Assembly (NCBI GenBank): GCA_013205565.1 | Contig: JABMMM010000214.1 | Coordinates: 1 to 42,126, forward strand | Reading direction: 5' to 3' | DNA from: Alcaligenaceae bacterium | Lineage (GTDB): Bacteria; Pseudomonadota; Gammaproteobacteria; Burkholderiales; Burkholderiaceae_B | Length of the DNA stretch: 42,126 nt | Part shown: in pieces, positions 122 through 24,220 of the stretch | Layout: each line of letters begins with the position of its first letter | Numbering within the stretch: the stretch's first letter is position 1 | The notes under the pieces: model-generated | What the model was told of the DNA's origin: nothing | What the model saw: the letters and a program-made list of their open reading frames with translations, nothing else | The model's database searches: none | Position numbers and translations under genes: made by a program

Positions 122-1252
122 TCAAAGAGCGCAGGTTCTAAACCCTGAATAGATATCGCAGCGCTCAGGCGTAAAAAAATTGCGGTAATTTAGGTGGCGT
201 ACAACCGGATGGGTGAGGTGCGCGGCGCCACGCAGGACCTTTCGCGAGCCAAACCATGGAGCCGAGTATTCAACATAGGGATGCGACACAAAGTCCTCGA
301 AAGGCGCAAACGTATCTTGCGTCCATTCCCAGACGTCTCCCCACTCAAAATCTTGTAAAGTTTTTGCGGCGCAATCCCATTCGGCCTCTGTTGGTAAGCG
401 GCACTTTGCCCACGCGCAGTAGGCCTGCGCGTCATGCCACGACAGATGCACTGCGACATCAGTCATCGCGAGGGGTCGCCAGCAGCCAAAGACTTGTGTC
501 TCAAAGCCAGAGCTCGCGGCCTGAAGATACGGTGGCAGGCGGTGGCCGGTCGCCGCAACAAAGGCCAGGTATTGTCCCCAGCTCACGGGTTGCAAGGCGA
601 TCTCAAAAGCGTGAAGGTCAAAGCGTTGCATGCTGAGTTCGTTATCAAAGCAAAACTGCAGGTGGCCAGAGCCTAGTGTCCAGGTTTGAGCTGGCAGACG
701 CACGCTTACGGGTAACGGGGGTTGATTTGTCTGACGCTGTACAAGGTGCCGCCACGGGGTATCGAAAGCCACTTCAAGTGATTGTGCCATGTAGGCACTC
801 GCTTCAAGATGCATCGCTTCGTGCTGTAACACGAGCCAATAAAAATAGAGTGCGGGGCTATCATTGGTTTCTTGCTGCAAAAGCTCAAGCGTCTGTGTCA
901 AGGTTTGTTCGGCGTACTGCAGGCATTGCTCTTGAGTCGGCAGCGCTTGATGCCAACGGGTTGGGTGAGGGACTTTGGCGCTGTCAAACCAAAGGTCGGC
1001 CGTTGCCAGCGCCGAGGGCAGTCGCGCGTGGGTCAAGTCAAGCGCCAGGCCACACTGACGCTGCTGGTTGCGCGCGACCCAGTATTCTTGAAACCAGGCG
1101 ACATGACCAAGCTCCCAAAGCGGAGGGTTCAGCCCAGCCGCTAACGGAATCAAGAGTTTGTCGGCGCGTTGGTAACATACAAAAGCGCTAAGGGTGTGCT
1201 CTCGAAGCTCTTGGAGTGCTACTGTTAGCGTTTGGATATTTGCCTGACGCAT
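122..1252 (-). CDS. senA: SenA-like selenoneine synthase (EgtB/SUMF1 family)
   Basis: This 376-residue protein has the EgtB layout: an N-terminal DinB-type helical domain and a C-terminal formylglycine-generating-enzyme (SUMF1) domain ending in GFRTCAL. The iron-binding histidines of the family are visible: His50 in WELGH, then His144 and His148 in HEAMHLE. Enzymes of this family join hercynine to a sulfur or selenium donor using non-haem iron and oxygen. The neighbours are a TIGR04348 glycosyltransferase and a SelD homologue, which is the reported senABC gene set, so the SenA role (hercynine plus selenosugar) is preferred over plain EgtB. It starts at an ATG, 40 bases from the divergent senB. 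No EgtD-type hercynine methyltransferase is present in the window, so hercynine would come from elsewhere. The SenA versus EgtB choice rests on context. Confidence 0.85.
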   Translation of the reverse strand: MRQANIQTLTVALQELREHTLSAFVCYQRADKLLIPLAAGLNPPLWELGHVAWFQEYWVARNQQRQCGLALDLTHARLPSALATADLWFDSAKVPHPTRWHQALPTQEQCLQYAEQTLTQTLELLQQETNDSPALYFYWLVLQHEAMHLEASAYMAQSLEVAFDTPWRHLVQRQTNQPPLPVSVRLPAQTWTLGSGHLQFCFDNELSMQRFDLHAFEIALQPVSWGQYLAFVAATGHRLPPYLQAASSGFETQVFGCWRPLAMTDVAVHLSWHDAQAYCAWAKCRLPTEAEWDCAAKTLQDFEWGDVWEWTQDTFAPFEDFVSHPYVEYSAPWFGSRKVLRGAAHLTHPVVRHLNYRNFFTPERCDIYSGFRTCAL

Positions 1253-1292
1253 TGCCTGTTCATGCCCTAAAAGTTATTTGCCAAAAACTGAA

Positions 1293-2285
1293 ATGAGCCA
1301 ATCCACTAAGCCCAAGCCCAAGCCAAAGTTGCAAAGCGTCGTCATTGTAAGTCCGGCGCTGGCCAGCGCCAATAACGGTAACTGGCAGACAGCTAAACGC
1401 TACAGACAAATGCTAGTCGGGCAGTTTCGCGTGCGTCTGGTCAGCGAGTGGGACGGCGCCGAGTCCGACGCTGTCCTGATCGCACTACATGCGCGCCGCA
1501 GCCACCCGTCAATTGCAGCCTGGCATGCCGCGCGCGGTTCAAACGGCTTGGTAGTCGTGCTGACAGGTACCGATTTATATCGAGATATCAAGCAAGACGC
1601 TCAGGCGCAGCAATCGCTTCAATGGGCTGCGCGTTTAGTTGTGTTGCAAGCGACCGGGCTCGCTGAGTTGGCTGCACCGCTGCGTAAAAAGACGTCTGTG
1701 CTGTTGCAGTCGACGACCCCACGCGTCACACTACCCAAAGCGATCGGTCGCGTGCGTGCGGTCATGGTTGGCCACTTGCGTCCTGAAAAGGCGCCTCAGA
1801 CCGTGTTTGAGGCGGCCGCGTTACTTGTAGCTCAGCACGAGATCGACTTCAGGCATATTGGTGGTGAGCATGATTTGCAATTGGCGCAGCAAGCGCGGCA
1901 AACTGCGCAAAATTACCCTCAATATCAGTTTATGGGTGAACTGAGCCACGCCGCAACGCGCCGTGAAATACAACGCGCACATGTGTTGGTGCACACCAGC
2001 ATCATGGAAGGCGGCGCCCATGTGCTCATGGAGGCCATCTGCAGCGGCGTGCCCGTGATTGCCTCGCGTATCGCGGGTAATATTGGAATGCTGGGTGATG
2101 ACTATGCTGGTTTGTTTGAGGTGGGCGACGCGCAGGGTTTGGCAACCCTTCTTTTGAAATTTAAAAATGAACCGAGCTTCGCGACACACTTGCAACAACA
2201 ATGCGCGCGTCGGGCACCTCTGTTTGAACCGGCGCACGAGCGCAGCGGATTGATTACAATCATTAAAAATACGCTTTTGGCGTAA
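1293..2285 (+). CDS. senB: SenB-like selenosugar synthase (TIGR04348 glycosyltransferase)
   Basis: This is a 330-residue glycosyltransferase of GT4-like fold. Visible features are an N-terminal strand-rich domain starting SVVIVSPA, the segment VVMVGHLRPEKAP, and a C-terminal donor-site region HTSIMEGGAHVLMEAICSG. The overall pattern matches the TIGR04348 family, which was renamed SenB after it was shown to make a selenosugar from selenophosphate and a UDP-sugar. It sits between senA (divergent) and the selenophosphate synthetase gene (66 bases downstream, same strand), which fits that role. The ATG at 1293 is chosen; an in-frame TTG at 1278 is possible. Neither has a strong ribosome-binding site. 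Confidence 0.85.
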   Translation: MSQSTKPKPKPKLQSVVIVSPALASANNGNWQTAKRYRQMLVGQFRVRLVSEWDGAESDAVLIALHARRSHPSIAAWHAARGSNGLVVVLTGTDLYRDIKQDAQAQQSLQWAARLVVLQATGLAELAAPLRKKTSVLLQSTTPRVTLPKAIGRVRAVMVGHLRPEKAPQTVFEAAALLVAQHEIDFRHIGGEHDLQLAQQARQTAQNYPQYQFMGELSHAATRREIQRAHVLVHTSIMEGGAHVLMEAICSGVPVIASRIAGNIGMLGDDYAGLFEVGDAQGLATLLLKFKNEPSFATHLQQQCARRAPLFEPAHERSGLITIIKNTLLA

Positions 2286-2351
2286 CGCCCCTTCTAACAG
2301 GCGGCGCTTTAAACCCAGACGCGTTGTCGTCTTTTATGCCTGAGGATCCTC

Positions 2352-3401
2352 ATGAATGCTTTTGAACCCCGTTTGACTTCGCTCTCGCATGGTGGAGGTT
2401 GTGGTTGCAAAATTGCCCCGGCGGTGTTGTCTGAGATCTTAAAAGGCACTTTGCAAATGCCTATCCCAAAAGAGTTGATGGTGGGCATCGCAACTGCCGA
2501 TGATGCGGCAGTTTATAAAATCAATGACGAACAGGCCTTAATCGCGACGACCGATTTTTTTATGCCAATCGTTGATGATCCGTATGATTTCGGGCGGATC
2601 GCGGCGACAAACGCTATCAGCGATGTCTACGCGATGGGCGGCAAGCCGATCCTGGCCCTGGCGTTGGTTGGGATGCCGATCAATGTCTTATCCACCGATA
2701 CAATCGGCAAAATTCTTGCGGGGGGTGCCTCGGTTTGTAGTATTGCCGGTATCCCCATCGCAGGCGGTCACACCATCGACTCGGTCGAACCGATTTATGG
2801 TTTGGTCGTGCTTGGGTTAATTCACCCTGATCGCGTCAAGCGTAATGATGGTGCGCGCAAGGGGGACGTCATGGTCTTGGGCAAATCAATTGGGGTGGGG
2901 ATTTTGTCGGCCGCGCTCAAAAAAGAGGCGCTTGACGCGGCGGGCTACGAAGCGATGCTCTCGAACGCAACTAAACTCAATACGCCGGGCCCCGAGCTAG
3001 CTGAGTTGTCGGGTGTGCATGCCTTGACCGATGTCACGGGCTTTGGCTTGGCCGGTCATGCGCTAGAAATCGCGCGTGGCGCAAAGTTAACTGTGCAACT
3101 GAACTGGGCTCAGGTGCCTTTGTTACCCAACGTTACGGCTTTGATTCAGCAGGGCATGGTCACGGGCGCGTCGGGTCGCAATTGGGAGGGCTATGGCAGC
3201 GAGATCACGCTTGACGCGGCTTTACCCCCAGAATGTCAAACGCTTTTGTCTGATCCGCAAACGAGCGGTGGCTTATTGGTCTGCTGTTCGCCCGAGACCG
3301 TGCCCGAGGTGTTAGCAGTATTTAAGCGGCATGGCTTTCATGATGCCGCAGTGGTGGGTCACGTTAGCGAGGCGCAAGCCTCTCGTTTGATTGTCAGCTA
3401 G
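2352..3401 (+). CDS. senC: Selenide, water dikinase (SelD/SenC)
   Basis: This enzyme makes selenophosphate from selenide and ATP. The 349-residue protein is full length for SelD. The catalytic region GGGCGCK puts Cys17 and Lys20 at the same numbers as the essential residues of E. coli SelD, and Cys19 completes the pair. Cysteine rather than selenocysteine is encoded, so no recoding is needed. Further family segments are ATTDFFMPIVDDP, AGGHTIDSVEP and DVTGFGLAGHALE. The position directly after senB identifies it as the SenC of a selenoneine cluster. No selA, selB, selC or selU lies in the window, so whether it also feeds selenoproteins or selenouridine cannot be judged. Its TAG stop shares one base with the GTG start of the next gene. 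Confidence 0.92.
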   Translation: MNAFEPRLTSLSHGGGCGCKIAPAVLSEILKGTLQMPIPKELMVGIATADDAAVYKINDEQALIATTDFFMPIVDDPYDFGRIAATNAISDVYAMGGKPILALALVGMPINVLSTDTIGKILAGGASVCSIAGIPIAGGHTIDSVEPIYGLVVLGLIHPDRVKRNDGARKGDVMVLGKSIGVGILSAALKKEALDAAGYEAMLSNATKLNTPGPELAELSGVHALTDVTGFGLAGHALEIARGAKLTVQLNWAQVPLLPNVTALIQQGMVTGASGRNWEGYGSEITLDAALPPECQTLLSDPQTSGGLLVCCSPETVPEVLAVFKRHGFHDAAVVGHVSEAQASRLIVS

Positions 3402-4948
3402 TGTTTAGGCTCAGCAGCTGGCTACTGGGGCTGTCGTACTGCGTGTGGGTAGCTCTCGCGCAGGCGGCGCTTGCTCAGCCCTTGACGGTTGGCTCTAAGC
3501 GCTTTACTGAATCATATATTCTGGGCGAGATCGTCAGTCAGGCAGTCACCGCTGGCGGTCATGACCGTGTTCGGCTAAAGGCGGGCTTGGGTAATACAGG
3601 AATTTTGTTGTCGGCGTTAACCAGCGGCGAAATCGATTTATATCCTGAATATACCGGCACAATCACCCGAGAGATTTTAAAAACCGAGCAGGCGCTTTCG
3701 CTGGCGCAGATCAACGAGCGCCTGCTGCCGCTTGGACTCCAGGCTGGGGTGTTGCTTGGGTTTGATAATTCTTATGTGCTGGCGATGCGGCGGGAGTTAG
3801 CCGAGCAACTGCAAATCAAAACGATTTCAGACCTAGCTAAACACCCGCATCTGGTGCCGGGCTTGTCACACGAATTTATTGGCCGCAGTGATGGCTGGAA
3901 AGGTCTATCAGCGGCTTATCAGCTTGGCCGACTTTCACCGCGCGGACTGGATCACGGGCTCGCCTACGAGGCAATTGCAGCAAAGCAGATCGATGTGGTG
4001 GATGCCTATGGTACCGATTCAAAACTAAAGCGTTACGGTTTAACGATGTTGCTTGATGACCGGCAATTTTTTCCAACTTATGAAGCGCTATTGTTGTATC
4101 GCGCGAACGTGCCGACTAAGTTTCCAGAGTCTTGGAAAATCATCTTAGCGTTGCAAAATAAAATTTCTCAGCAAGCCATGCTCGAGCTCAACACCCAGGT
4201 TGAGCTTGAAGGTCAAACGTTTACAGCGGTGGCGCAGCAGTTTTTGCTGACACAGCGTGCTCAACTTAGTGAGGCTACGAACACAGCAAGCGTACAAGAT
4301 GGGCAACGCTTAGTTTCTAGGCAGTCATTTTTAAGTGCGCTCTTTGGTGTGGATTTTTGGCGTCTGGCCGCGCAACACGTTTTTTTAGTGGGGCTGTCGT
4401 TGCTTCTGGCGCTGCTGGTCGGGCTACCACTGGGTATTTTGTGTTTTTATCGGCCGCGCACCGGGCAAGTGGTCTTGTCGCTCACGGGGGTCATTCAAAC
4501 GATTCCGTCTTTAGCGTTGCTCGCCTTTTTAATTTCTTTGTTTGGGATGATCGGTACCATACCCGCCATCGTGGCGTTATTCTTGTATGCCTTGTTACCC
4601 ATCGTACAAACTACCTATACGGGGCTCAGTGAGATTTCTGCGTCGCTGCGACAAGCCGCCACGGCACTTGGTTTGAGCGAACGTGATCGGCTCTGGCTGA
4701 TTGAACTGCCTCTTGCGCGTCCGATGATTTTAAGTGGCGTAAAAGTCGCGGCCGTTGTGAGCGTTGGCACCGCAACGATCGCGGCGTTTGTCGGAGCCGG
4801 GGGCTTTGGCGAGCGTATCGCGCAAGGCCTGGCCCTAAATAACACTTCACTTTTATTGGCAGGTGCAATTCCGTCAGCGGCTTTAGCGCTGCTGCTGCAA
4901 GTTGGATTTTTCGTCTTAGAGCGGCGTCTCAAGCGCGCGACGGATTAA
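3401..4948 (+). CDS. Fused substrate-binding protein/permease, OpuC/EgtU-like ABC importer
   Basis: This 515-residue protein has an N-terminal signal peptide cleaved near ALAQ. An osmoprotectant-type (ProX/OpuCC) binding domain follows at about 27-290, opening with VGSKRFTESYILGE and containing IDLYPEYTGTI. A multi-helix permease domain at about 315-510 carries the coupling segment LRQAATALGLSERDRLW. The family imports quaternary amines such as betaine and choline, and related fused proteins (EgtU) import ergothioneine. The GTG start overlaps the senC stop by one base, which suggests translational coupling. Moving selenoneine, ergothioneine or hercynine is therefore an attractive inference. 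The order here is binding domain then permease, the reverse of EgtU. No partner ATPase follows. The stop overlaps the stop of the convergent CoA-transferase gene. Confidence 0.85.
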   Translation: MFRLSSWLLGLSYCVWVALAQAALAQPLTVGSKRFTESYILGEIVSQAVTAGGHDRVRLKAGLGNTGILLSALTSGEIDLYPEYTGTITREILKTEQALSLAQINERLLPLGLQAGVLLGFDNSYVLAMRRELAEQLQIKTISDLAKHPHLVPGLSHEFIGRSDGWKGLSAAYQLGRLSPRGLDHGLAYEAIAAKQIDVVDAYGTDSKLKRYGLTMLLDDRQFFPTYEALLLYRANVPTKFPESWKIILALQNKISQQAMLELNTQVELEGQTFTAVAQQFLLTQRAQLSEATNTASVQDGQRLVSRQSFLSALFGVDFWRLAAQHVFLVGLSLLLALLVGLPLGILCFYRPRTGQVVLSLTGVIQTIPSLALLAFLISLFGMIGTIPAIVALFLYALLPIVQTTYTGLSEISASLRQAATALGLSERDRLWLIELPLARPMILSGVKVAAVVSVGTATIAAFVGAGGFGERIAQGLALNNTSLLLAGAIPSAALALLLQVGFFVLERRLKRATD

Positions 4949-6333
4949 CGGCGCCAAGCAGCCTCGCTGCTGCCAAGTGGTCCGGCCGGTATCTCCCAGC
5001 GTACGTCTACGCCGGTGACGTGAACAGGCCAGCGAACCCTGCAGGCAGGACCCCAGAAGGTTTGTTCGCGGGTGGTAGCAAGGTCTGCAGGCGTTTCGGG
5101 TGCCAGGTGCTGCGTGCGCTCGCCGCTGGTGTTTAACGTTTGCATCAGCAGGGCGCCGGTGCGTGCCAGCGACGCGCGAGCGATACTACCGCGGCCGGTG
5201 TTCAGGCGCGTGTGCAGTCCGCGTAAGGCGGCGGTGGCCAAGAGGTAACCGGTGGTGTGATCGAGGGCCTGTACCGGCAACGGTTTGGGCTTATCACTTG
5301 CGGCCAACTGTTGTCCTGCGTGCGCGATGCCCATGCTCATTTGCACCAAGCTGTCAAAGCCGCGGCGGTGTCGCCAGGGGCCGGTAAAACCATAGGCATC
5401 TAACGAGACATCAACCAAACCAGGTCTGAGGGCTTGCCGTTGTTCAGCCCCCAGCCCAAGTGCCGATAGCGCATCGCTGCGATAGCCGTGCACGAATACG
5501 TCGGTTTCACCCAGCAAGTCGCTCCAGCGTTCGCGTTGATTGGGTTCGCGCAAGTCAAGTCGCGCGCAACGCTTACCCAGCGTCATTTCGGGGGCAAGCG
5601 TGGGTTCATCCCACCAGGGCGGGTCAAGCCGCAAGACCTCGGCGCCCAGGCCGGCTAGCAGCCGGGTGGCAGACGGCCCTGCCAGTACGCGTGTCATATC
5701 AAGAACTTTGAGCCCTTGCAGCGGACGTGCGGGGTTTAACGCCCAGGTTGGCTGTGCCATCAGCAGGCCCGGTTGCCAGTCGAGCAGGGGTTCGCTTAAC
5801 ACTGCCTGTCCTTGTGCATGTGCCTGCCAGTCTTGCCAAGACCGCATCGTCGCCGCGCAGCCGCCTTCGGCTAAGACCGCTGCTTCAAGCGCGTCGGCGC
5901 GCCAGGTGGCCACTGCTTGCGCCACAGCCGCGCGCGCAGTGGGGGCCGTCAGACCGAGCGCACGCAAGGCTGCTGCACGGTGGTGTGGCGCGTTGGTGTG
6001 CAGCCTGATCCAACCATCGACCGTCGGGTAATCGCCTATCACAAAGTCTTCGGCATTTTCTATCCGCCAGCCTTGGGGACGCAAAGATTGTGCAAACCAA
6101 AATGAGGCAAGGCGGCGATCAACCGTGACGAATGCTTGAGTGTTTGCCCCAAGCAGTGAGCACAGGGCGAGGCCGGCCGCCCCCATCGAAGCCGCGGCTA
6201 AATCGGTGACTGCGAAGGCCGAAGGTAACTCGCCCTCGCCAACAAAGCGTACTCGCCCAAGTACGCGTTCGTCGCCTTGGGCGGCAGACCAGAGCGTTTT
6301 AAGCAATTGTGCGGCTGGATGATTATCTTTCAT
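4945..6333 (-). CDS. CaiB/BaiF family III CoA-transferase with permuted domain order
   Basis: Family III enzymes move CoA between carboxylic acids. The core nucleotide-fold segment, GLKVLDMTRVLAGPSATRLL, normally lies at the N-terminus but begins here near residue 206 of 462. The candidate catalytic aspartate follows at about residue 327 in FDSLVQ. The first 200 residues resemble the part that usually comes after the core, for example DGWIRLHTNAPHHRA and a TWRADALEAAV helix, so the chain reads as a rearranged version of the usual order. The ATG at 6333 is chosen; a longer frame to 6438 adds 35 residues unlike the family. It is convergent with the transporter gene and divergent from the GT9 gene. 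The substrate is unknown. Confidence 0.8.
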   Translation of the reverse strand: MKDNHPAAQLLKTLWSAAQGDERVLGRVRFVGEGELPSAFAVTDLAAASMGAAGLALCSLLGANTQAFVTVDRRLASFWFAQSLRPQGWRIENAEDFVIGDYPTVDGWIRLHTNAPHHRAAALRALGLTAPTARAAVAQAVATWRADALEAAVLAEGGCAATMRSWQDWQAHAQGQAVLSEPLLDWQPGLLMAQPTWALNPARPLQGLKVLDMTRVLAGPSATRLLAGLGAEVLRLDPPWWDEPTLAPEMTLGKRCARLDLREPNQRERWSDLLGETDVFVHGYRSDALSALGLGAEQRQALRPGLVDVSLDAYGFTGPWRHRRGFDSLVQMSMGIAHAGQQLAASDKPKPLPVQALDHTTGYLLATAALRGLHTRLNTGRGSIARASLARTGALLMQTLNTSGERTQHLAPETPADLATTREQTFWGPACRVRWPVHVTGVDVRWEIPAGPLGSSEAAWRR

Positions 6334-6429
6334 GGATCGATGAAATCGTATGACTTGACTAGGCTCAAGGCGGGTGTGACTGGGTGAGACACAAACTAAG
6401 TGTGTACCTAAATCTACTGTTACTATTTC

Positions 6430-6450
6430 AAATAGCAATTATTCTCATTT
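6430..6450. promoter_or_regulatory. Possible Fur-like operator upstream of the GT9 gene
   Basis: The AT-rich spacer between the divergent CoA-transferase and GT9 genes contains AATTATTCTCATT. Its right half agrees well with the Fur-box half ATTCTCATT, while the left half is poor. A short palindrome, CTATTTCAAATAG, abuts it. This is pattern matching only; nothing about the downstream gene demands iron control. Confidence 0.2.
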
Positions 6451-6477
6451 AAAAGCTCGGTCTAGCTTAACCTTGTT

Positions 6478-7404
6478 GTGAAAAAAGTTATTGTTTTTAT
6501 CCGAAGCATGCAGTTTTTAGGAACACAAATTGTTTCTTATCCACTGCTGTATCAAATTAAACAATTTTGGCCCCACTGTCATTTGAGGGTAGTCGCGCAA
6601 GATGCGGTGGGTAAACATTACTTAATATTGCCCTGGGTCGACGCGTTTACGCAGGCCGACACGTTGACTGAAGTGTATCGGGCCATGGACGGTGACGCAG
6701 ACCTTGTCATTGCTTTGCACTTTGCGAGCGACAAGTACGGCATCGCCGCCATGCTTAAGCGCCCTCGCTATCGTCTAGGTTTTAAAAATCGAAGAGTGAC
6801 CGATGTGGTGTGGACGCATGCGTACCGCAAAGATTTTTCTCAGTACATGGGGCTGGCGAATCTGCGGTTATTGGCCGCGTTTAAAGATTTTGATCCGATA
6901 CAAGCGGCCCGCAAGTGCGTGCAGGCGCTAGCGACTGGCGCTGAGACAAGCACAGCAGAGGTCGTGTTCATGCCGGGCGGGGGCGCCGGTGACTATAAGC
7001 GCTGGCCCATACAACACTATGTCGCACTCGCCGACCTTTTAAAACCAGCGTTGCCACTTCAGTCCACATTCTGTTTCGTGCTCGGCCCCGACGAAGCCGA
7101 GCAATATCGTTGGTTGCAAAGCCTTGAGCGTACCGATTTTGTTTATTTGAGGACTCGTCCACTTAACGACATTGCAACAGCGGTGCTAAGCGCAAAAGTC
7201 GTGGTGGCCAACGATTGCGGTCCTTCGCATTTGGCCCAGTTTTCAGGCGTGCCCTACGTGGGTGTGTTTCATCAAAGCAATCGCGAGTGGTTTTGGACGC
7301 GTGACACCAGTCTGGATGTGTTGCCAAGCGACGGCACGACCGAAATTAAGAACGTGACCCCTGCGCAGGTCTTCGAGGCTTGTCAGCGTTTGCTGTCAAA
7401 ATGA
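6478..7404 (+). CDS. Glycosyltransferase family 9 (heptosyltransferase-like)
   Basis: The 308-residue protein resembles ADP-heptose:LPS heptosyltransferases. Its N-terminal half begins with a VIVFIRSMQFLGTQIV strand-loop. The C-terminal half has the family segments MPGGGAGDYKRWP and NDCGPSHLAQFSGVPYVGVF, the latter forming the donor-sugar site. Such enzymes act on the cytoplasmic face of the inner membrane in lipopolysaccharide core or other surface-glycan assembly. The gene is isolated, with no other LPS gene in the window, so its acceptor is unknown. It begins at GTG. A 144-base divergent spacer separates it from the CoA-transferase gene. Confidence 0.8.
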   Translation: MKKVIVFIRSMQFLGTQIVSYPLLYQIKQFWPHCHLRVVAQDAVGKHYLILPWVDAFTQADTLTEVYRAMDGDADLVIALHFASDKYGIAAMLKRPRYRLGFKNRRVTDVVWTHAYRKDFSQYMGLANLRLLAAFKDFDPIQAARKCVQALATGAETSTAEVVFMPGGGAGDYKRWPIQHYVALADLLKPALPLQSTFCFVLGPDEAEQYRWLQSLERTDFVYLRTRPLNDIATAVLSAKVVVANDCGPSHLAQFSGVPYVGVFHQSNREWFWTRDTSLDVLPSDGTTEIKNVTPAQVFEACQRLLSK

Positions 7405-7520
7405 CTAAAGTATCGTGTAAAGTAGCTGAAACAAAAAAGTACCCAAAGTAAAAAGAACACACAATAAATATAGTGTGAGACAACGCAAGTTCAAAGAATT
7501 GATCTGAGTCAGGAGTCCTT

Positions 7521-9263
7521 TTGAATACGGCTAAACCCATTCCCACGCCTCTGACTGTTACGGGGTTAAACATACACAACTCTGTCGGCCACGCAATCGT
7601 GCGCGCGCTTAAGCGCCACGGTGTCCAGTGCACCTTCGGTCAAAGCTTACCCACCATGTTTCAGTTGCCGGCCGAACAGGGGGGTATCAAGCAGATTGTG
7701 TATCGTACTGAAAACGCCGGTGGTTATATGGCCGATGCGTATGCACGACTGACCGGCAAGCCGGGCATTGTGACGGCCCAAAATGGCCCAGCAGCAGCGC
7801 TGTTGGTTGCGCCGCTTGCCGAGGCGCTCAAAGCGTCAATTCCGGTGATTGCCTTGGTGCAAGATGTGAGTCGCCTGCAAACCGATAAAAACGCCTTTCA
7901 AGACCTAGATCATCTGGGTATGTTCAGTGCTGTCTCAAAGTGGGTGCGTCGCGTGAATGAACCCAGCCGTGTGGACGACTATATTGATCAGGCTTTCACG
8001 ATGGCCTGCTCGGGTCGGCCCGGTCCCGTCGTGCTGCTGTTTCCCAGCGACGTCTTAACCGCACCCGCCGTGGCGTCAACGCGCACTGCTTGTCTGGGGC
8101 AATATCCCTTAGATCCAACGGTTGCCTCGCCCGACGCCGTGCGCCACGCCGCCGAACTCTTGGCAAACGCGCAACGCCCACTGGTGATTGCGGGCGGAGG
8201 CGTGCACCTGTCGCACGCTCACGCTGCACTCACGCGTTTGATGGATGAAGGGCACTTGCCGGTGGCTACCACGGTGATGGGTAAAGGCACTGTTGATGAG
8301 CAGCACCCGCTTGCCGTGGGCGTGGTTGGCTATTTTATGGGACCAAACGGTGCCACGCGTTATCAACGCAAGTTGGTCACCGAGGCCGATGTGATCCTTT
8401 TGGTGGGCAACCGCACCAATCAAAACGGTACGGATTCGTGGCAGCTGTATCCCAAAAATGCGCATTACATTCATCTCGATATCGATGGCACTGAAGTGGG
8501 CCGCAACTACGAGGCAACACGTCTGGTGGGCGATGCAGGGCTGACGCTCGATGCCTTAGCACAGGCTCTTAACAAACTTGATTTATCTAAACTTCGCGCG
8601 CAGCGACCCGCACTCGAGGCAAGTATTCAAGCTGCGCGTGAGGTCTATTTAAAAGAATCAGCACCGGTTCGCTCGTCAGCGCAGTCTCCGATTCGTCCAG
8701 AACGCGTCATGCACGAACTGCAAAAACGCCTGACCGGTGACACGGTGATGGTGGCTGATGCGAGCTACTCATCGATCTGGATTTCAAACTGTTTAACCTC
8801 AGTCAAAAGTGGCATGCGCTTTATTACGCCACGCGGGTTAGCAGGGTTGGGCTGGGGGTTTCCGATGGCGTTAGGCGCTAAGGTTGCGCGGCCGCAATCA
8901 GAGGTCTATTGCCTGGCGGGTGATGGTGGGTTTGGACACGTTTGGTCAGAGCTTGAAACTGCGCGCCGCATGGGTTTAAAGGTGACACTCATTGTTTTAA
9001 ATAATGGAATTTTGGGCTATCAAAAACATGCCGAAAACGTTAGGTTTGGTGCCCACACCAGTGCGGTCGATTTTTATCCGGTGGATCACGCTGCGATCGC
9101 GCGCAACTGTGGCTGCAACGGTATCCGGGTCACAGACCCCGAGCAATTGAATCAAGCGCTGGACGCAGCACGCGCGAGCGAGGTCACGACGTTGATTGAA
9201 GTGATGACTGACGAAAACGCTTTCCCTCCCATCACAGCTTATACGGCGGCCTTAGAAGCATGA
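7521..9263 (+). CDS. Thiamine-diphosphate-dependent enzyme, acetolactate synthase-like
   Basis: The 580-residue protein has the three-domain plan of ThDP decarboxylases and ligases. The N-terminal domain has the catalytic glutamate Glu64 in RTENAGGYMADAYAR. A middle domain includes PLVIAGGGVHLS. The C-terminal cofactor domain has GDG at 467-469 and NN at 494-495, the metal and diphosphate motif. It starts at TTG with an AGGAG ribosome-binding site at 7511-7515. Its stop overlaps the ATG of the SDR gene (ATGA), so the two are coupled, and a Bug receptor follows. No acetolactate synthase small subunit is nearby, which argues against branched-chain amino acid synthesis and for catabolic C-C bond cleavage or ligation of an imported acid. 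The substrate is unknown. Confidence 0.85.
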   Translation: MNTAKPIPTPLTVTGLNIHNSVGHAIVRALKRHGVQCTFGQSLPTMFQLPAEQGGIKQIVYRTENAGGYMADAYARLTGKPGIVTAQNGPAAALLVAPLAEALKASIPVIALVQDVSRLQTDKNAFQDLDHLGMFSAVSKWVRRVNEPSRVDDYIDQAFTMACSGRPGPVVLLFPSDVLTAPAVASTRTACLGQYPLDPTVASPDAVRHAAELLANAQRPLVIAGGGVHLSHAHAALTRLMDEGHLPVATTVMGKGTVDEQHPLAVGVVGYFMGPNGATRYQRKLVTEADVILLVGNRTNQNGTDSWQLYPKNAHYIHLDIDGTEVGRNYEATRLVGDAGLTLDALAQALNKLDLSKLRAQRPALEASIQAAREVYLKESAPVRSSAQSPIRPERVMHELQKRLTGDTVMVADASYSSIWISNCLTSVKSGMRFITPRGLAGLGWGFPMALGAKVARPQSEVYCLAGDGGFGHVWSELETARRMGLKVTLIVLNNGILGYQKHAENVRFGAHTSAVDFYPVDHAAIARNCGCNGIRVTDPEQLNQALDAARASEVTTLIEVMTDENAFPPITAYTAALEA

Positions 9264-10006
9264 ACAAGAAAATCGCCTTAGTCACGGGTGCCGCAAAAGG
9301 CATTGGGTTGGGCACCAGTCAAGCGTTGATTGCTACAGGTCGATTTGTGGTGATGGTGGATCGCCTGCCGATCGATCTCGAACAATTGGGTATCACTGAT
9401 GATCAGGCGATCGCGTTTCAAGCAGACGTAACTGACATGGCCTTCATGACGCGCTTACACTCGCAGATCAAAGAGCGCTTTGGTACGGTGTCTATTCTGG
9501 TGAATAACGCGGGGATCTCGCCTAAGCGTGCCGATGGCCTATCCAACGGCATTCTTGACGTAACCATACAAGAGTGGTCGAAGGTGCTGCTCGTGAATCT
9601 GACGACAGTCATGCAGATCACGCAGTTATTTTTACCCGAAATGAAAGCCCAAGGCTTTGGCCGTATCGTCAGCGTGTCGTCTTTAGCTGGGCGCAGTAAA
9701 TCTGTGGTGGCGGGCCCGAGTTACATGGCTTCAAAGGCCGGCATGCTCGGGCTGACTCGCGCGATCGCCTCAGAGATGGGGCCCTTTGGCATCACAGCTA
9801 ACTGCGTGGCACCTGGTCGCATCCTGACCGAAATGGCGATGCAGGCGGGCGAAGCAGTCAATCAACGCTACGCCGAGCAAATTCCGGTCAGACGCCTGGG
9901 TACCGCAGACGAGGTCGGTGCCTCGATTGCCTTTTTGTGTGCGGACAGTAGTGGCTTTATTAACGGGGCGACGATAGATATTAATGGTGGCTTTTTTATG
10001 TCGTGA
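9260..10006 (+). CDS. Short-chain dehydrogenase/reductase (FabG-like)
   Basis: This 248-residue NAD(P)-dependent oxidoreductase is of classical SDR length. The cofactor motif is TGAAKGIG at residues 9-16, the NNAG motif is at 82-85, and the catalytic serine (about 141), Tyr155 and Lys159 lie in the SSLAG and YMASK segments. It ends with the family tail INGATIDINGGFF. The start overlaps the stop of the ThDP enzyme by four bases, so both probably act in one pathway, for example reducing or oxidising the hydroxy/keto product of the lyase. It resembles FabG, but the catabolic-looking operon and absence of other fatty acid genes argue against a role in lipid synthesis. Confidence 0.85.
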   Translation: MNKKIALVTGAAKGIGLGTSQALIATGRFVVMVDRLPIDLEQLGITDDQAIAFQADVTDMAFMTRLHSQIKERFGTVSILVNNAGISPKRADGLSNGILDVTIQEWSKVLLVNLTTVMQITQLFLPEMKAQGFGRIVSVSSLAGRSKSVVAGPSYMASKAGMLGLTRAIASEMGPFGITANCVAPGRILTEMAMQAGEAVNQRYAEQIPVRRLGTADEVGASIAFLCADSSGFINGATIDINGGFFMS

Positions 10007-12867: not shown

Positions 12868-13703
12868 ATGAGTCAATCGAACACTAAAAATAAGTTGTTT
12901 GCGCCGATCACTGGCACCGTGATGCCACGTTTTGCGGGCATTGCCACCTTTATGCGCTTACCCTTTCTAGAGTTCGATCACCCAAGTATTGATGAGGTTG
13001 ATATTGGTTTGTTCGGAATCCCCTGGGATGGTGGCACGACTAATCGCGCAGGGGCGCGCCACGGCCCGCGTCAAATCCGTGATTTATCAACGCTGGCACG
13101 TAACGTCAATCGTGCTTCGGGGATCACTTAGTGACGTTACCCGTCATGCGTGCGATCGCAAAAGATCGCCCCGTTGGGATGGTGCACTTTGATGCGCACA
13201 CTGACACTTGGGATCGCTATTTTGGTGGCAGTAAATACACACATGGCACGCCCTTTCGCAGAGCGATCGAAGAGGGCCTGCTGGATCCAAAGCGCACCAT
13301 CCAGATTGGCATTCGAGGTGCCTTGTATAACGATAGTGAAAATAACTGGGGCATCGAGCAAGGCATTCGGGTTGTTGATATCGACGAATATCACGCGCTT
13401 GGCACCCAAGGGGTGATCGATCTGGCGCGCCAAGTGGTGGGCACGGGCCCCACCTACGTGAGTTTCGATGTGGACTTTCTGGATCCGGTGTACGCGCCGG
13501 GCACGGGTACGCCTGAGATTGGTGGTGCGACGACGTATCAGGCACAACAATTACTTCGTGGCTTACAGGGGTTGAATCTCATTGGCGGCGACGTGGTTGA
13601 GGTATCCCCTCCGTTTGACCCCTCTGGCAACACGGCTTTGGTGGGGGTGACCATGATGTTCGAGCTGTTGTGCGTGCTGGCGCATGCCCGTGCGCAGCAT
13701 TAA
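12868..13703 (+). pseudogene. Ureohydrolase (agmatinase/guanidinobutyrase-like), internal deletion and frameshift
   Basis: The N-terminal part (VMPRFAGIATFMRLP, GIPWDGGTTNRAGARHGPR) and C-terminal part (HFDAHTDTWD, SFDVDFLDP, PGTGTPEIGG, VEVSPPFD) clearly belong to one Mn-dependent ureohydrolase of the agmatinase/guanidinobutyrase type. Between them roughly 45 residues are missing: the sequence jumps from RNVNRAS straight to GDHLVTLPV, and the reading frame changes. The first frame stops at TAG 13129-13131; the second is entered at GGGGATCAC around 13120. The metal ligand His of GGDH survives only in the second frame, before its first possible GTG start (13131). The join makes a functional enzyme very unlikely, although both ORFs remain otherwise open, so the damage looks recent. 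Confidence 0.85.
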
Positions 13704-13779: not shown

Positions 13780-14826
13780 ATGAATGCAAAATGTTTATTA
13801 AGGATGGGCCAGTCGTTCAAACTCAGACTATCTCTGGCAATCGCCTGTGTGGTGACTAGCGCAGTCGCGAGTGCGGGTGAGTTAACGATTTATAGTTCAG
13901 TCGAAGGCGATAATTTAAAGAACTTTGCCTCGCTTTTCAGTAAAGCCCATCCCGATATTAAAGTGAATTGGGTGCGCGACTCAACAGGTGTGATTCAAGC
14001 ACGCGCGATGGCTGAAAAAGACAATCCCCGGCACGATCTTTTTTTTGGTCATGCAGCATCAAACTTGATGACGCTTGATGCAATGAATTTATTTTTGCCC
14101 TACCGCCCGGCCGGCGTCGAAAAACTCGATGAAAAATTTCGCGATAGGCGTGATCCACCAAACTGGACTGGTTTGTGGGGGTTCGGTGCCGCGATTTGTT
14201 TCAACACGATCGAAGCAAAAAAGAGAAACTTACCAAAGCCAGAAAAATGGGCTGACCTGACCAATCCGGTTTACAAAGGGCAGATTGTGATGCCGAACCC
14301 CGTCTCTTCGGGTACGGGCTTCTTAAATGTCTCTGGTTGGCTACAGATCATGGGCAAAGAGCGGGCGTGGGAGTTCATGGACGGCCTGCATCAAAATATT
14401 GCGTCTTACTCGCACTCGGGCTCCAAGCCTTGCGAGCAAGCCGCCGCCGGTGAGTATGTGATCGGGATTTCGTTGCCCCTGCGCGGCGCGAACCTAAAGA
14501 CCATGGGCGCGCCGATTGACGTGATTATCCCTACCGATGGCATTGGCTGGGAAATGCAAGGCGTGGCAATCATGAAGACCACTAAAAATCTAAAAGATGC
14601 GCAGACTTTTGTGAACTGGTCTGTTTCAGAGTCGGCAATGGATGCCTATGCGGCGCGTGCTGAAGTGGTGGCTTACCCGGTCAAAACGCCCAAGGCCCAG
14701 AACTTGCCGCCTGAATTAGCGAGTCGCATGATCAAGAATGATTTTGCCTGGGCCTCCGAAAATCAACCCACGATTTTGGCTGAATGGCGCAAGCGCTATG
14801 ACAGCAAAACCGAGCCAAAGAAATAG
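13780..14826 (+). CDS. ABC transporter substrate-binding protein (PhnS2/2-aminoethylphosphonate type)
   Basis: The 348-residue periplasmic protein has a signal peptide ending near AVASAG and then the iron/AEP-type binding fold start ELTIYSSVEGDNLKNFASLF. Other visible parts are the central NPVSSGTGFLNVSG and GIGWEMQGVAIMKTTKN, and the C-terminal EWRKRYD. This is the family (with AfuA-like Fe proteins) that includes putative 2-aminoethylphosphonate binders of phnSTU2 clusters. The ATPase and fused permease follow directly, making a complete importer. The substrate could also be another small anionic or cationic compound; the broken ureohydrolase upstream may once have shared the operon. No phosphonate-degrading gene (phnW, phnX, phnA) is in the window. 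Confidence 0.8.
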   Translation: MNAKCLLRMGQSFKLRLSLAIACVVTSAVASAGELTIYSSVEGDNLKNFASLFSKAHPDIKVNWVRDSTGVIQARAMAEKDNPRHDLFFGHAASNLMTLDAMNLFLPYRPAGVEKLDEKFRDRRDPPNWTGLWGFGAAICFNTIEAKKRNLPKPEKWADLTNPVYKGQIVMPNPVSSGTGFLNVSGWLQIMGKERAWEFMDGLHQNIASYSHSGSKPCEQAAAGEYVIGISLPLRGANLKTMGAPIDVIIPTDGIGWEMQGVAIMKTTKNLKDAQTFVNWSVSESAMDAYAARAEVVAYPVKTPKAQNLPPELASRMIKNDFAWASENQPTILAEWRKRYDSKTEPKK

Positions 14827-14827
14827 C

Positions 14828-16000
14828 GTGATTGAAACCGGCACCGTGCGCCTACCCGCTGAACAGGGTAGCTTTCGCGAAAGCGACGTGCCGGCTCTTG
14901 TTGGCGCCCCCAAGGCGTCTAGCACCCGCAAACTCGTCGTCGCAAATTTAAGCAAGAGCTTTGGTTCAACCGCAATTTTAAAAGACATCTCGTTTGAAAT
15001 CGAAGAGGGCGAGTTTGTTTGTTTTTTAGGCCCTTCGGGTTGCGGTAAGACGACGCTGTTGTTGTGCCTCGCCGGGCTAGAGTCACCTAGCTCGGGCGAG
15101 ATTTACAAAAATGGTCAAACGATCACTTCTGCGCCACCCTCGCAGCGCGACGTCGGGATCGTATTTCAGTCTTATGCGTTGTTTCCTAACCTAAGCGTCT
15201 CTGACAATATTGCTTTTGGTTTGGTGAATTTGAAATGGGCTAAAGACAAGATACGTGAAGCGGTTGGTGGCTTAGTGAGTTTATTGTCACTTGAGGGCCA
15301 CGAAAATAAGTATCCGAGTCAGCTCTCAGGCGGACAGCAACAACGCGTCGCCTTAGCCCGTGCCTTGGCTGTATCGCCGTCTTTGCTGTTGCTAGACGAA
15401 CCTCTGTCCGCGCTCGATGCACAAGTGCGTACTCGCTTGCGCGGCGAAATCCGAGATCTGCAGCAACGACTCAAAATCACGACAGTCATGGTGACACATG
15501 ACCAAGAAGAGGCGCAGACCCTAGCCGATCGGATCGTGTTGATGAACGCGGGACGCATTGAGCAGATCGGCACGCCTTGGCAAATTTATAACGAACCTGC
15601 TACGCCGTTTGTGGCGGATTTTATGGGTGTGAGTAACTTGATTCAGGGCGTTGTGAGTGAACAAAATGAAGTTGCTTGCGATCAGTTCGCCCTGCGTTGC
15701 AACACCCAAGATTATCTTGTCGGCACGAAGGTGCAGCTCTTGCTGCGCCCTGAAGATATCGAAGTGGTCGCACCCAGCGTGCTTGGCACAAGCGTAGATA
15801 CCTTCACCAACCTGTTGCAAGTGACGATTGTCAAAATTGAGCATTTGGGCGCCGTGGTGCGTGCGCATGTTGTCAGTGCGAACGGGCTAACGTTAAAAGT
15901 TGACATTTCCAAACGCGACTTTGATCCCGCTTTGCATGGCGTGTCGCAAGCGCTCTGTTTGACGATAAAGACTAACGATATCCGTCTGTTCGTGCAATGA
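14828..16000 (+). CDS. ABC transporter ATP-binding protein (PhnT/PotA-like)
   Basis: The protein is about 390 residues. It has Walker A GPSGCGKTT, a Q-loop in VFQSYALFPN, signature LSGGQQQRVALARAL, Walker B LLLLDEPLSALD and H-loop VTHDQEEA. A C-terminal TOBE-like regulatory domain (about residues 275-390) contains LLLRPEDIEVV. This is the plan of PotA/PhnT importer ATPases. The likely start is GTG 14828, just after the binding-protein stop; an ATG at 14798 inside that gene is in frame and would add ten residues. The stop overlaps the permease ATG by four bases. It powers the adjacent double permease. Confidence 0.9.
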   Translation: MIETGTVRLPAEQGSFRESDVPALVGAPKASSTRKLVVANLSKSFGSTAILKDISFEIEEGEFVCFLGPSGCGKTTLLLCLAGLESPSSGEIYKNGQTITSAPPSQRDVGIVFQSYALFPNLSVSDNIAFGLVNLKWAKDKIREAVGGLVSLLSLEGHENKYPSQLSGGQQQRVALARALAVSPSLLLLDEPLSALDAQVRTRLRGEIRDLQQRLKITTVMVTHDQEEAQTLADRIVLMNAGRIEQIGTPWQIYNEPATPFVADFMGVSNLIQGVVSEQNEVACDQFALRCNTQDYLVGTKVQLLLRPEDIEVVAPSVLGTSVDTFTNLLQVTIVKIEHLGAVVRAHVVSANGLTLKVDISKRDFDPALHGVSQALCLTIKTNDIRLFVQ

Positions 16001-18715: not shown

Positions 18716-19498
18716 GTGATTTCTTCAAGTCTTAAGGGGCTTTTAGCCGCCCCATTGTTGTTTGCGTTAACCACGCAAACTTCGTTTGCTGCCGATGTCG
18801 TCTTGAAATCTAATGACTTTGTTGGTATTTCGTTTTGGTTGATTTCGATGGCTCTTATTGCCTCGACAGCTTTCTTTTTTCTAGAAACACAGCGTGTCTC
18901 CGGCAAATGGAAAACTTCCTTGGTAGTTTCGGGCTTGGTCACGATGGTTGCTGCTGTTCATTACTTTTACATGCGTGAAGTTTGGGTTCAAACAGGTGCG
19001 ACCCCAACGGTGTATCGGTACATTGACTGGCTGATTACCGTTCCTTTGTTAATGATCGAATTTTATTTGATCTTATCTGCAATCACCAAAGTGCCAGCAG
19101 GTATTTTCTGGCGCCTGTTGATTGGTACCATGGTGATGTTAGTTGGTGGTTATTTGGGTGAAGCAGGCTATATGTCTGTCTGGCCAGCATTTATTATCGG
19201 TATGGTCGGTTGGGCTTACATTCTGTGGGAAATCTTTGGCGGTGAAGCTGGCAAGTTGAATGCCTCTTCGGCACCTCCTTCGGTCCAGTCAGCCTTCAAT
19301 ACGATGCGTTGGATTGTTACCATTGGTTGGGCGATCTATCCGTTGGGTTACTTCTTCGGTTACTTGACCGGCGCGGATCCAAAGAGCAGCGCAGCTGCAT
19401 TGAACATCATCTATAACCTGGCTGATGTGTTGAACAAAATTGCTTTCGGTCTGATCATTTGGTCAGTTGCGGTCACCGAGACCGAAAAGAAAGCCTAG
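18716..19498 (+). CDS. Proteorhodopsin, green-type proton pump
   Basis: This is a 260-residue seven-helix microbial rhodopsin with a cleavable signal peptide (about 1-25, ending SFAA). The retinal-binding lysine is Lys241 in NLADVLNKIAFG. The proton-acceptor Asp104 and Thr108 sit in RYIDWLITVP, donor Glu115 in LLMIEFYLIL, and His82 pairs with the acceptor. Asp-Thr-Glu is the outward proton-pump motif. Leu112 is at the colour-tuning position (105 in the SAR86 protein), where leucine gives green absorption and glutamine blue. The GTG start has a good ribosome-binding site. The genes for making retinal follow on the same strand, so the pump can be supplied internally. It acts in the inner membrane and makes a light-driven proton gradient. 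Confidence 0.97.
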   Translation: MISSSLKGLLAAPLLFALTTQTSFAADVVLKSNDFVGISFWLISMALIASTAFFFLETQRVSGKWKTSLVVSGLVTMVAAVHYFYMREVWVQTGATPTVYRYIDWLITVPLLMIEFYLILSAITKVPAGIFWRLLIGTMVMLVGGYLGEAGYMSVWPAFIIGMVGWAYILWEIFGGEAGKLNASSAPPSVQSAFNTMRWIVTIGWAIYPLGYFFGYLTGADPKSSAAALNIIYNLADVLNKIAFGLIIWSVAVTETEKKA

Positions 19499-19621
19499 TC
19501 ATAGGTTAGTAAGGGTAGCCCTCGGGCTGCTAGCACTGTGCGTAGGGAATGACGATTTGTATTCCTTATGCGCACTGCGCGCAACCGAGGGTTTTTATCG
19601 ACACTCACCCTTCGCACTTCT

Positions 19622-20629
19622 ATGACTGACTTGACCAAAGAGTACGATCGGGGCTCTGACCTCGAGACCTTAAACGCGGTGTCGCTTCGGATGACTAGCG
19701 TGCCAACCCAGCCTTCATTTGTGGGTGTGGTTTCAAAATCGGGTGTAGACACCCAAAATATACATGCACTCAATTTGTCGCTTGCCCAAGTGCAAGCCAA
19801 AATGACTGATGCGGTTAACGCGCTTGGTGGCGAACCGCTGGCACTCAGCACCATCGCAATTCAGGCGGCCCTTTATCATTTAAAAGCAGAAGGCCAACAG
19901 GTTCGGGCTCGTATCGCGCTCGGTGCCTGTCGGGCGCTAAACGTCGAGACCAAAGACGCGGTCACTTTAGCGGCAGCCATCGAGTTGCTGCATAACGCAT
20001 CGCTGGTACACGACGACTTGCAGGATCGGGACCTTGAACGTCGCGGCCAAAAAACAGTATGGTCAAAATACGGTGACAACACGGCAATATGTGTTGGTGA
20101 TTTATTGTTGTCTTGTAGCTACGGGGTGTTGGCGCAGTACCGCGACACCTCAGTGCTTGGGGCTTTAGTAACTTTGATGCACACGCGTACCGCCCAAGCG
20201 GTACGTGGCCAAAATGCAGATCTAGTATTTCAAAATAAGACGTTACCTGATCTGAATGTCTACAAACAGATCGTGATCGCAAAGTCTGGGGCCTTGTTAA
20301 GTTTGCCCCTGGAGCTTGCCTTGATCGCTGGCGGGCATTCGGCGTCTTGCAAGTCGGCCCTCAAAGCGGCTCAGGCATTTTCTATGGGTTATCAAATTAT
20401 TGATGATCTCGACGACTATCAAAGTGATCAGCTGCGCGCGACCGCAAAGGTATTAAATGTATTGCAAGTCTTGAACGGGGCGACCAATATCCTAACGGCT
20501 CAAGCACAAGCGAGGCAGTTAGCGCGTGAGCATCTGCTTGAGTCAATGGGGTTGGCAGATACCCTGCCGATGGGTTCTGGTAGTCTCTTAGTTCAGATTG
20601 CAAAAAAATTACTGGCACGTCTTGAATGA
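19622..20629 (+). CDS. crtE: Geranylgeranyl diphosphate synthase (CrtE)
   Basis: This prenyltransferase elongates farnesyl-type diphosphates to C20 for carotenoid synthesis. Both aspartate-rich motifs are present: DDLQD at about 131-135 and DDLDD at about 261-265 (numbering from the ATG at 19622, 335 residues). No start has a convincing ribosome-binding site: ATG 19568 adds 18 residues and ATG 19692 would remove 23. The N-terminal 60 residues are variable and poorly like the family, so the start is uncertain. The gene lies 123 bases after the rhodopsin and its stop overlaps crtI (ATGA). Confidence 0.9.
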   Translation: MTDLTKEYDRGSDLETLNAVSLRMTSVPTQPSFVGVVSKSGVDTQNIHALNLSLAQVQAKMTDAVNALGGEPLALSTIAIQAALYHLKAEGQQVRARIALGACRALNVETKDAVTLAAAIELLHNASLVHDDLQDRDLERRGQKTVWSKYGDNTAICVGDLLLSCSYGVLAQYRDTSVLGALVTLMHTRTAQAVRGQNADLVFQNKTLPDLNVYKQIVIAKSGALLSLPLELALIAGGHSASCKSALKAAQAFSMGYQIIDDLDDYQSDQLRATAKVLNVLQVLNGATNILTAQAQARQLAREHLLESMGLADTLPMGSGSLLVQIAKKLLARLE

Positions 20630-22116
20630 AATCTACGAAAGCACTTGTGATCGGCGCCGGTTTTGGTGGCATGGCGGCAGCTATACGTTTGCGCGCCAAG
20701 GGGTATGAGGTCACACTGCTTGATCGCGCCAAGGCCCTAGGTGGGCGCGCGCAGGTGTACACCCGCAACGGTTATGTCCATGATGCGGGGCCTACAGTCA
20801 TTACGGCGCCGTTTTTGTTTGAAGAGTTATTCGCCTTATTCGGCGAGCGACTTGAAGATCATGTCAATTTAGTGCCGCTTAAACCTTGGTACCGCTTTTA
20901 TTTTGCGGGTGGCGAGCAGTTCGATTATGGCGGCACGCTCGAAGACACACTTGCCGAAATTAAAAGGATTGAACCAGCGGATGTTGCGGGCTACCTGGCG
21001 TTAGTCGCGCATTCAAAAAATATCTTTGCGGTCGGATTCTCAGAGTTGTCTGCGCAGCCTTTTCACGAATTTTCAACGATGGCGGCTCAAGTCCCGCGAT
21101 TGTTAAAATTGCGTAGCCATGAAACTGTTTGGCAGATGGTGTCGCGCTTTCTTAAAAATCCCTTGCTGCGGCAAGCGTTTTCGATCCAACCGTTGCTGGT
21201 AGGCGGTAACCCGTTTGACACCACGAGCATCTATGGTTTGATCCATTACCTTGAACGCGCCTATGGTGTGTTTTTTACCATGGGTGGCACAGGGCACTTG
21301 GTTCGGGCACTCGGCGAGTTAATGCAGCGCCAAGGCATTGAAGTCAAACTAGAAACTACGGTAAAAACCTTAAGCCTGCAAGACGGCAGCGCCTCGGGCG
21401 TTGTGCTAGCCGATGGCACGCATTTAGCCAGCGATCTTGTCGTTTCAGACGCCGATCCAACCTATCTTTATGAGCATATGATTGAGCGGGCAGCACAGAC
21501 GACTGTTGTCAAGCTTAAGCAAAAGGCTGCGCACTATTCGATGGGCTTATTCGTGCTGTACTTTGGTACGACTCGAACCTATGAAGAGGTCGCACATCAC
21601 ACCATTTGGATGGGTGAGCGCTACCGAGAGCTGCTTGACGATATTTTTAATAAAAAAATTCTCGCCGAAGATTTCTCTCTGTATTTGCATCGCCCGACCG
21701 CAACCGATCCAAGTTTTGCGCCACCTGGGCACGATAGCTTTTATGTGTTGTGTCCGGTGCCTAATCTGCTCGGAAACGTCGATTGGTCGGTGCAAGGCCC
21801 TAAGCTACGTGATCAGATCGTGGCGGCGTTAGACCAGACAATCTTGCCAAATCTTAGCGAAACAATTGTCGAAGATTTTTATAAGACACCCGAAGATTTC
21901 AAAGACGAATATCTTAGTACGCACGGCGCGGGCTTTTCGGTTGCGCCACTCTTTAGACAGTCTGCATGGTTTCGGTTTCATAACCGAGCCGAGGGAATCA
22001 AAAACTTATATTTAGTTGGCGCCGGAACGCACCCCGGTGCGGGGGTGCCAGGCGTGCTTTGCTCGGCGAAGGTGCTAGACGCCTTGATTCAGCCACTAAA
22101 CACGATCGACTCTTAG
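20626..22116 (+). CDS. crtI: Phytoene desaturase (CrtI)
   Basis: This 496-residue FAD enzyme converts phytoene to lycopene by successive desaturations. The N-terminal dinucleotide fold GAGFGGMAAAIRLRAKG (residues 10-26) is followed by the acidic-basic LLDRAKALGGRAQ segment. The C-terminal family signature reads LYLVGAGTHPGAGVPGV. Length and both ends match bacterial CrtI. The start overlaps crtE by four bases and crtB begins two bases after its stop, so the three are translated from one message. Confidence 0.95.
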   Translation: MKSTKALVIGAGFGGMAAAIRLRAKGYEVTLLDRAKALGGRAQVYTRNGYVHDAGPTVITAPFLFEELFALFGERLEDHVNLVPLKPWYRFYFAGGEQFDYGGTLEDTLAEIKRIEPADVAGYLALVAHSKNIFAVGFSELSAQPFHEFSTMAAQVPRLLKLRSHETVWQMVSRFLKNPLLRQAFSIQPLLVGGNPFDTTSIYGLIHYLERAYGVFFTMGGTGHLVRALGELMQRQGIEVKLETTVKTLSLQDGSASGVVLADGTHLASDLVVSDADPTYLYEHMIERAAQTTVVKLKQKAAHYSMGLFVLYFGTTRTYEEVAHHTIWMGERYRELLDDIFNKKILAEDFSLYLHRPTATDPSFAPPGHDSFYVLCPVPNLLGNVDWSVQGPKLRDQIVAALDQTILPNLSETIVEDFYKTPEDFKDEYLSTHGAGFSVAPLFRQSAWFRFHNRAEGIKNLYLVGAGTHPGAGVPGVLCSAKVLDALIQPLNTIDS

Positions 22117-22118
22117 CA

Positions 22119-24219: not shown

Positions 24220-24220
24220 C

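Follow-up and report, generated by a model that had tools for sequence, protein, structure and literature searches.

The contig JABMMM010000214.1 of an Alcaligenaceae bacterium (assembly GCA_013205565.1), of which all 42,126 nucleotides were analysed and are referred to here as the window, begins with the genes senA, senB and senC for the biosynthesis of selenoneine, to which a gene for a betaine-type ATP-binding cassette (ABC) importer is joined. The original prediction had placed a complete three-gene cluster at positions 122-3401. All three open reading frames (ORFs) are indeed intact, NCBIfam profiles confirmed their families, and such a trio at this place is far beyond chance. The extent given for the cluster has to be revised, however, as the operon continues past 3401 into the transporter gene, which had been overlooked. 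Whereas the pathway is already known, the importer built into the operon, whose ligand is putative, is new. We estimate a probability of roughly 0.6 that the locus represents a functional operon for selenoneine, extended by an importer that most likely handles a histidine betaine. The features concerned are:

122-1252, minus strand: senA (376 residues), selenoneine synthase, an EgtB-like non-haem iron enzyme, assigned by NF041186, TIGR04373, the solved SenA and a tree
1278 (TTG start) or 1293 (ATG start) to 2285, plus strand: senB, selenosugar synthase, assigned by TIGR04348 and the solved SenB
2352-3401, plus strand: senC/selD (349 residues), selenophosphate synthetase, assigned by PRK00943 and TIGR00476
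3401-4948, plus strand: gene of the betaine-type ABC importer, with a signal-like N-terminus, an OpuAC binding domain and then a permease
3479-4252, plus strand: the binding domain (residues 27-284), with the pocket K33, R34, F35, G64, N65, T66, Y84, T87, F121, N123, Y125, E158, R162, Y203 and Y227

SenC reaches 531.2 bits on PRK00943 (cut-off 299) and 417.9 bits on TIGR00476 (cut-off 125). SenB scores 414.2 bits on TIGR04348 (cut-off 300) and matches the solved SenB 8fbx end to end (E about 6e-95). The catalytic residues had been described as intact and they are: H50, H144 and H148 of SenA (histidine in all 24 SenA and all 9 EgtB sequences of the alignment), and, in SenC, C17 and K20, which we take from the E. 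coli SelD to be the catalytic pair. SenB retains the EGGAHV motif and a lysine that aligns with K158 of VpSenB, both hallmarks of the pathway according to the accessible part of PMC10891094. By homology to the reported pathway, EgtD (whose gene appears to be cut by a contig break) would form hercynine from histidine, SenC would make selenophosphate, SenB would convert this to a selenosugar, and SenA, dependent on iron and oxygen, would place the selenium on hercynine. Judged from these similarities, it is highly probable that the cluster serves selenoneine biosynthesis.

A profile search of the three proteins had been proposed with the original prediction. SenB and SenC exceeded their cut-offs, and SenA came to 416.9 bits on NF041186, just under the cut-off of 420. 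Other SenA proteins score 413.9 and 412.4 bits (loci L016 and L017, whose SenA is 92-93% identical to that of the window), 406.5 bits (genome G022), 390.0 bits (G008) and 383.1 bits (G047) on this model. Since a true EgtB from this genus reaches 385.8 bits, within the range of the SenA proteins, NF041186 hardly separates SenA from EgtB, and its use as the only separator was dropped; the small shortfall of the window SenA seems not to be telling. The EgtB model TIGR03440 (cut-off 360) does separate the two, with 539.0 bits for the true EgtB and just 175.6 bits for the window SenA, which also carries the signature TIGR04373 (83 bits, cut-off 71). Its best solved relatives are the SenA structures 8ryz and 8k5i (325 bits, E about 5e-96), followed by OvsA (140 bits) and EgtB (82 bits).

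The window SenA does not cluster with true EgtB proteins. A tree calculated without OvoA and OvsA splits 24 SenA from 9 EgtB sequences with a support of 100/100, with a warning of the program that the G008/G047 SenA and EgtB form long branches, which may attract each other. The 24 SenA sequences come from 70 listed blast-best ORFs, many of them duplicates, and ORFs longer than 430 residues were trimmed to the last 410; the EgtB sequences are non-duplicate hits of more than 300 bits and less than 480 residues. That the cluster makes a sulfur compound or another selenium product, SenA using a different donor or acceptor, could be argued from the three bits lacking on a poorly separating model and from OvsA, which shows that relatives are able to make other selenium products. 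We consider this very unlikely in view of the tree, the EgtB score far under the cut-off, the adjacent senB and senC, and the egtD gene that is convergent to senA in relatives.

The GTG start codon of the transporter gene overlaps the stop codon of senC (TAGTG). A single protein carries both PF04069 (residues 27-282, 171.7 bits) and PF00528 (residues 341-511, 86.5 bits), and would thus combine a membrane-anchored periplasmic binding domain with a permease. The nearest solved structures are binders of betaine or ergothioneine: 8dp6, which is titled osmoprotection protein and is presumably the ergothioneine transporter of Helicobacter pylori, and EgtUC of S. pneumoniae. A structure predicted from 5 sequences was too poor to carry weight (mean predicted local distance difference test score 39.4; predicted template modelling score 0.20).

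The linkage of the transporter to the sen genes extends over the genus. Among 32 genomes, 26 have a SenB over the TIGR04348 cut-off, and a transporter homologue (54-100% identity) was found in 25 of these and in one of the six SenB-negative genomes (Fisher p 0.00017, uncorrected for kinship); the match is fragmentary or at contig ends in several genomes (G007, G010, G013, G020 and G021). In 24 of the 25 the gene is part of the sen locus. It immediately follows selD/senC in 21 of them, immediately precedes senC in G003, and lies ahead of senA in the two genomes G008 and G047. For the remaining genome of the 25, G021, the position is hidden by a contig end inside selD. Where the transporter follows senC, the spacing between the compared ORFs ranges from a 1-base overlap to 34 bases.

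In two divergent species, G008 and G047, the genes on one strand are, in this order, those for an ATPase, the transporter, SenA, SenC, a selenate-type binding protein, a second ATPase, two permeases and EgtD; senB occupies the opposite strand and is convergent to egtD. Compared with the window, identities are 36-38% for SenA, 35-40% for SenB and 53-58% for the transporter. Because this rearranged operon has a divergent SenA and yet includes the transporter, it appears that the transporter was kept with the sen genes while the gene order was reshuffled.

The pocket was defined by the 15 EgtUC residues that touch or enclose ergothioneine, as taken from the accessible part of PMC9732360 and mapped by alignment. 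In 24 binding-domain sequences, which include that of the SenB-negative G014, the G007 copy on its own contig C324 and that of L018, truncated by a contig end, all 15 sites are invariant down to 54% identity, against a background of 96 invariant columns among the 258 of the domain (p 1.7e-7). Ten of the 15 are equal to EgtUC; the other five differ (I243R, G244F, T274N, F293Y and Y337F). The aromatic cage and the carboxylate contacts are kept (Y84, Y125, Y203, Y227, N123, K33, T87 and R162), as are the equivalents of K242, T296, R379 and the imidazole-contacting E375. By its pocket the protein can be classed as a betaine-type importer and not as a member of EgtU, with histidine betaines and glycine betaine as the candidate ligands. 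Selenium substitution was not tried on EgtUC, according to the same source as far as accessible.

Several observations weigh against an importer that is dedicated to the pathway, the first of which concern the pocket itself. The EgtU hallmarks G244 and F293 are replaced by F35 and Y84 in all 24 sequences; phenylalanine at 244, tyrosine at 293 and phenylalanine for Y337 are features of the glycine-betaine binder AfProX (PMC9732360, accessible part). The E375 equivalent does not discriminate, because it is also found in the OsmF-type glycine-betaine protein of locus L021, the sole generic control. With respect to distribution, the SenB-positive G023 has no transporter homologue, and the SenB-negative G014 keeps one. 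No such link emerges beyond the genus: the transporter occurs in just 5 of 33 sen loci (L016, L017, L018, L019 and L044), all of which have the closest SenB and SenC and some of which are the same records as genus members. A binding-domain profile found nothing similar in the ORFs of at least 150 residues of the 27 loci that remain besides L021, within the flanks examined. Finally, the window lineage has no ATPase gene beside the transporter, such a gene being adjacent only in G003, G008 and G047 of the 11 genomes searched, and in the source genome the G008 ATPase has no relative closer than 40% identity.

These points leave room for an ordinary osmoprotectant importer, for glycine betaine, choline or the like, that is merely co-transcribed with the sen genes. 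F35 and Y84 fit the glycine-betaine pattern and not that of EgtU, the transporter does score weakly on the OsmF model and on choline permease models, and senC of L021 is immediately followed, on the other strand, by a full, unrelated four-gene OsmF-type system, a single case that may be due to chance. The same scores are far below the cut-offs (97 bits versus 400 for OsmF), however, and a generic osmoprotectant role does not fit well with the persistent sen linkage in two gene orders and the near-absence of the transporter from SenB-negative congeners. We regard such an importer as a serious alternative, though not as the favoured one. In G014, selD and the transporter share a strand at a distance of about 10 kb (L098, 2797-15332) and may be the remnant of a lost sen operon; EgtB and EgtD of this genome are encoded on a different contig.

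The ATPases adjoining the transporter in G003 (order ATPase, transporter, senC), G008 and G047 are 68-77% identical to each other, and in the other 8 of the 11 genomes searched their best relative is 40% identical. Since the window lineage lacks such an operon ATPase, the importer would have to borrow one that is encoded elsewhere. C131 was considered for its size and rejected, as its identity to the operon ATPases is just 30-33%. The best relative in the window (14738-16000, 40%) was likewise rejected; its neighbours encode an SBP_bac_6 protein and a permease, so that it is more likely the ATPase of that system. The scarcity of adjacent ATPases, three among the 11 genomes, might also mean that the transporter is a non-functional leftover without a partner in this species. 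This is improbable given the open reading frame, the pocket that is invariant in 24 sequences, and the many ATPases of the same class that are present and could serve in trans.

The original prediction had stated that the window holds no EgtD. This is true of the window itself; the assembly of the same genome (337 contigs, 3.4 Mb, 95.85% complete) contains a 5' part of egtD with 101 codons, which lies at the extreme end of contig C80, directly behind a LysR gene. Because C80 ends in LysR and the 5' part of egtD and the order in L017 is LysR-egtD-senA-senB-senC-transporter, with egtD and senA tail to tail and genes 92-98% identical to those described here, the simplest reading would be a contig break within egtD. 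Two findings argue otherwise. The 3' part of egtD, two thirds of the gene, was not found in the assembly, and the contig start is not the egtD tail:

1-121, no strand assigned: contig start, partly repeat-like, without similarity to the egtD tail expected from L016 and L017

The similarity to L016 starts at the senA stop, and the contig start has an 81% match of 68 bases to L017 (16204-16139). The LysR gene was rejected as a selenium regulator, with just 124.8 bits on the selenium LysR model (cut-off 250). Contig C80 (L103) also carries a second ABC system of the phosphonate/selenate-like kind (7272-9897), 3 kb ahead of the LysR gene; its substrate-binding protein scores 164.9 bits on TIGR04553, under the cut-off of 250.

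The genome search that had been suggested for the other pathway genes gave a mixed outcome, with the 5' part of egtD only, no EgtB over the cut-off in the source genome, and both selA (512.9 bits, with a match that begins at profile position 83) and selU (346.6 bits) present. In the genus, selU occurs in 29 of the 32 genomes and selA exceeds its cut-off in 17. As SenC is the sole SelD over the cut-off in the source genome, it probably also feeds the selenocysteine and selenouridine routes, and would then supply SelA and SelU as well as SenB. A putative selenate transporter protein is found on contig C169 (TIGR04553, 368.3 bits, cut-off 250); in G006, G008, G047 and G009 the TIGR04553 system lies inside the sen locus. 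In L044, selenate-type ABC genes beside senA (6159-8690) are present as short frame-shifted pieces and are apparently decaying. In at least 17 Limnohabitans-type loci, SenC is a fusion of 784-819 residues of a pyridine-nucleotide oxidoreductase (TIGR03169) and SelD, as read by a model for one locus (L041, 10985-13351).

The divergent orientation of senA and senB, as previously noted, is not unusual but common in these Burkholderiales. In the 25 of 33 related loci where senA was located it is on the strand opposite to senB, adjoining it in 23 and about 6 kb away in two (L032 and L042); it was not found in the other eight within the stretches examined, some of which are short. The gap of 40 bases reported between the two genes holds for the senB ATG at 1293 but shrinks to 25 bases with the TTG at 1278. 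With regard to the promoters, which had been placed within the opposite gene or in a shared region, only one promoter-like match was found in 900-1700, a weak one on the minus strand (0.4 expected by chance).

Elsewhere in the window, at 18716-25102, a bacteriorhodopsin-like gene (PF01036) is followed by members of the polyprenyl synthase, amine-oxidase (desaturase-like), phytoene synthase, lycopene cyclase and beta-carotene dioxygenase families, which looks like a full cassette for a light-driven pump and its retinal. An arginase-family ORF (13131-13703) matches only from profile position 96 and is perhaps truncated, or its start was missed.

In comparison with known systems, the cluster resembles that of Variovorax paradoxus (Kayrouz et al. 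2022, as described in the comment PMC9814287 and the accessible part of PMC10891094) in the hallmark residues of SenA, SenB and SenC and in the end-to-end match of SenA and SenB to the solved enzymes. It differs in that the importer gene overlaps the end of senC and that SenC doubles as the only SelD; sister species add egtD and a selenate-type ABC transporter to the locus. With EgtU of S. pneumoniae (PMC9732360, accessible part) the transporter shares the fusion of binding domain and permease, besides the retained contacts. The order of the two is reversed, the binding domain coming first here, its identity is 34%, and an adjacent ATPase is lacking in the window. The OsmF, ProX and OpuBC binding proteins share the Pfam OpuAC fold family and, in AfProX, the residues at F35 and Y84, but not the sen linkage. 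The TIGR04553 selenate transporter is a separate system outside the window.

The conserved linkage and the retained cage and carboxylate contacts suggest that the ligand more probably than not belongs to the hercynine family. The importer would then most likely recapture or take up a histidine betaine of the pathway, i.e. selenoneine, hercynine or ergothioneine. More tentatively, it could import selenoneine or scavenged hercynine with high affinity and would then be the first transporter devoted to the selenoneine pathway. The literature searched yielded no article about a transporter that belongs to a sen operon; the original article of Kayrouz et al. 2022 may mention one. How bacteria use selenoneine and whether it passes membranes are open questions in that literature, for which a transporter locked to the operon in two gene orders offers a concrete and testable candidate. 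The genus also provides natural contrasts, as it contains genomes with SenA only, with EgtB only, with both and with neither. If the proposed function is true, selenoneine would be a form of selenium that exists outside the cells, is shared and is taken up again by these bacteria.

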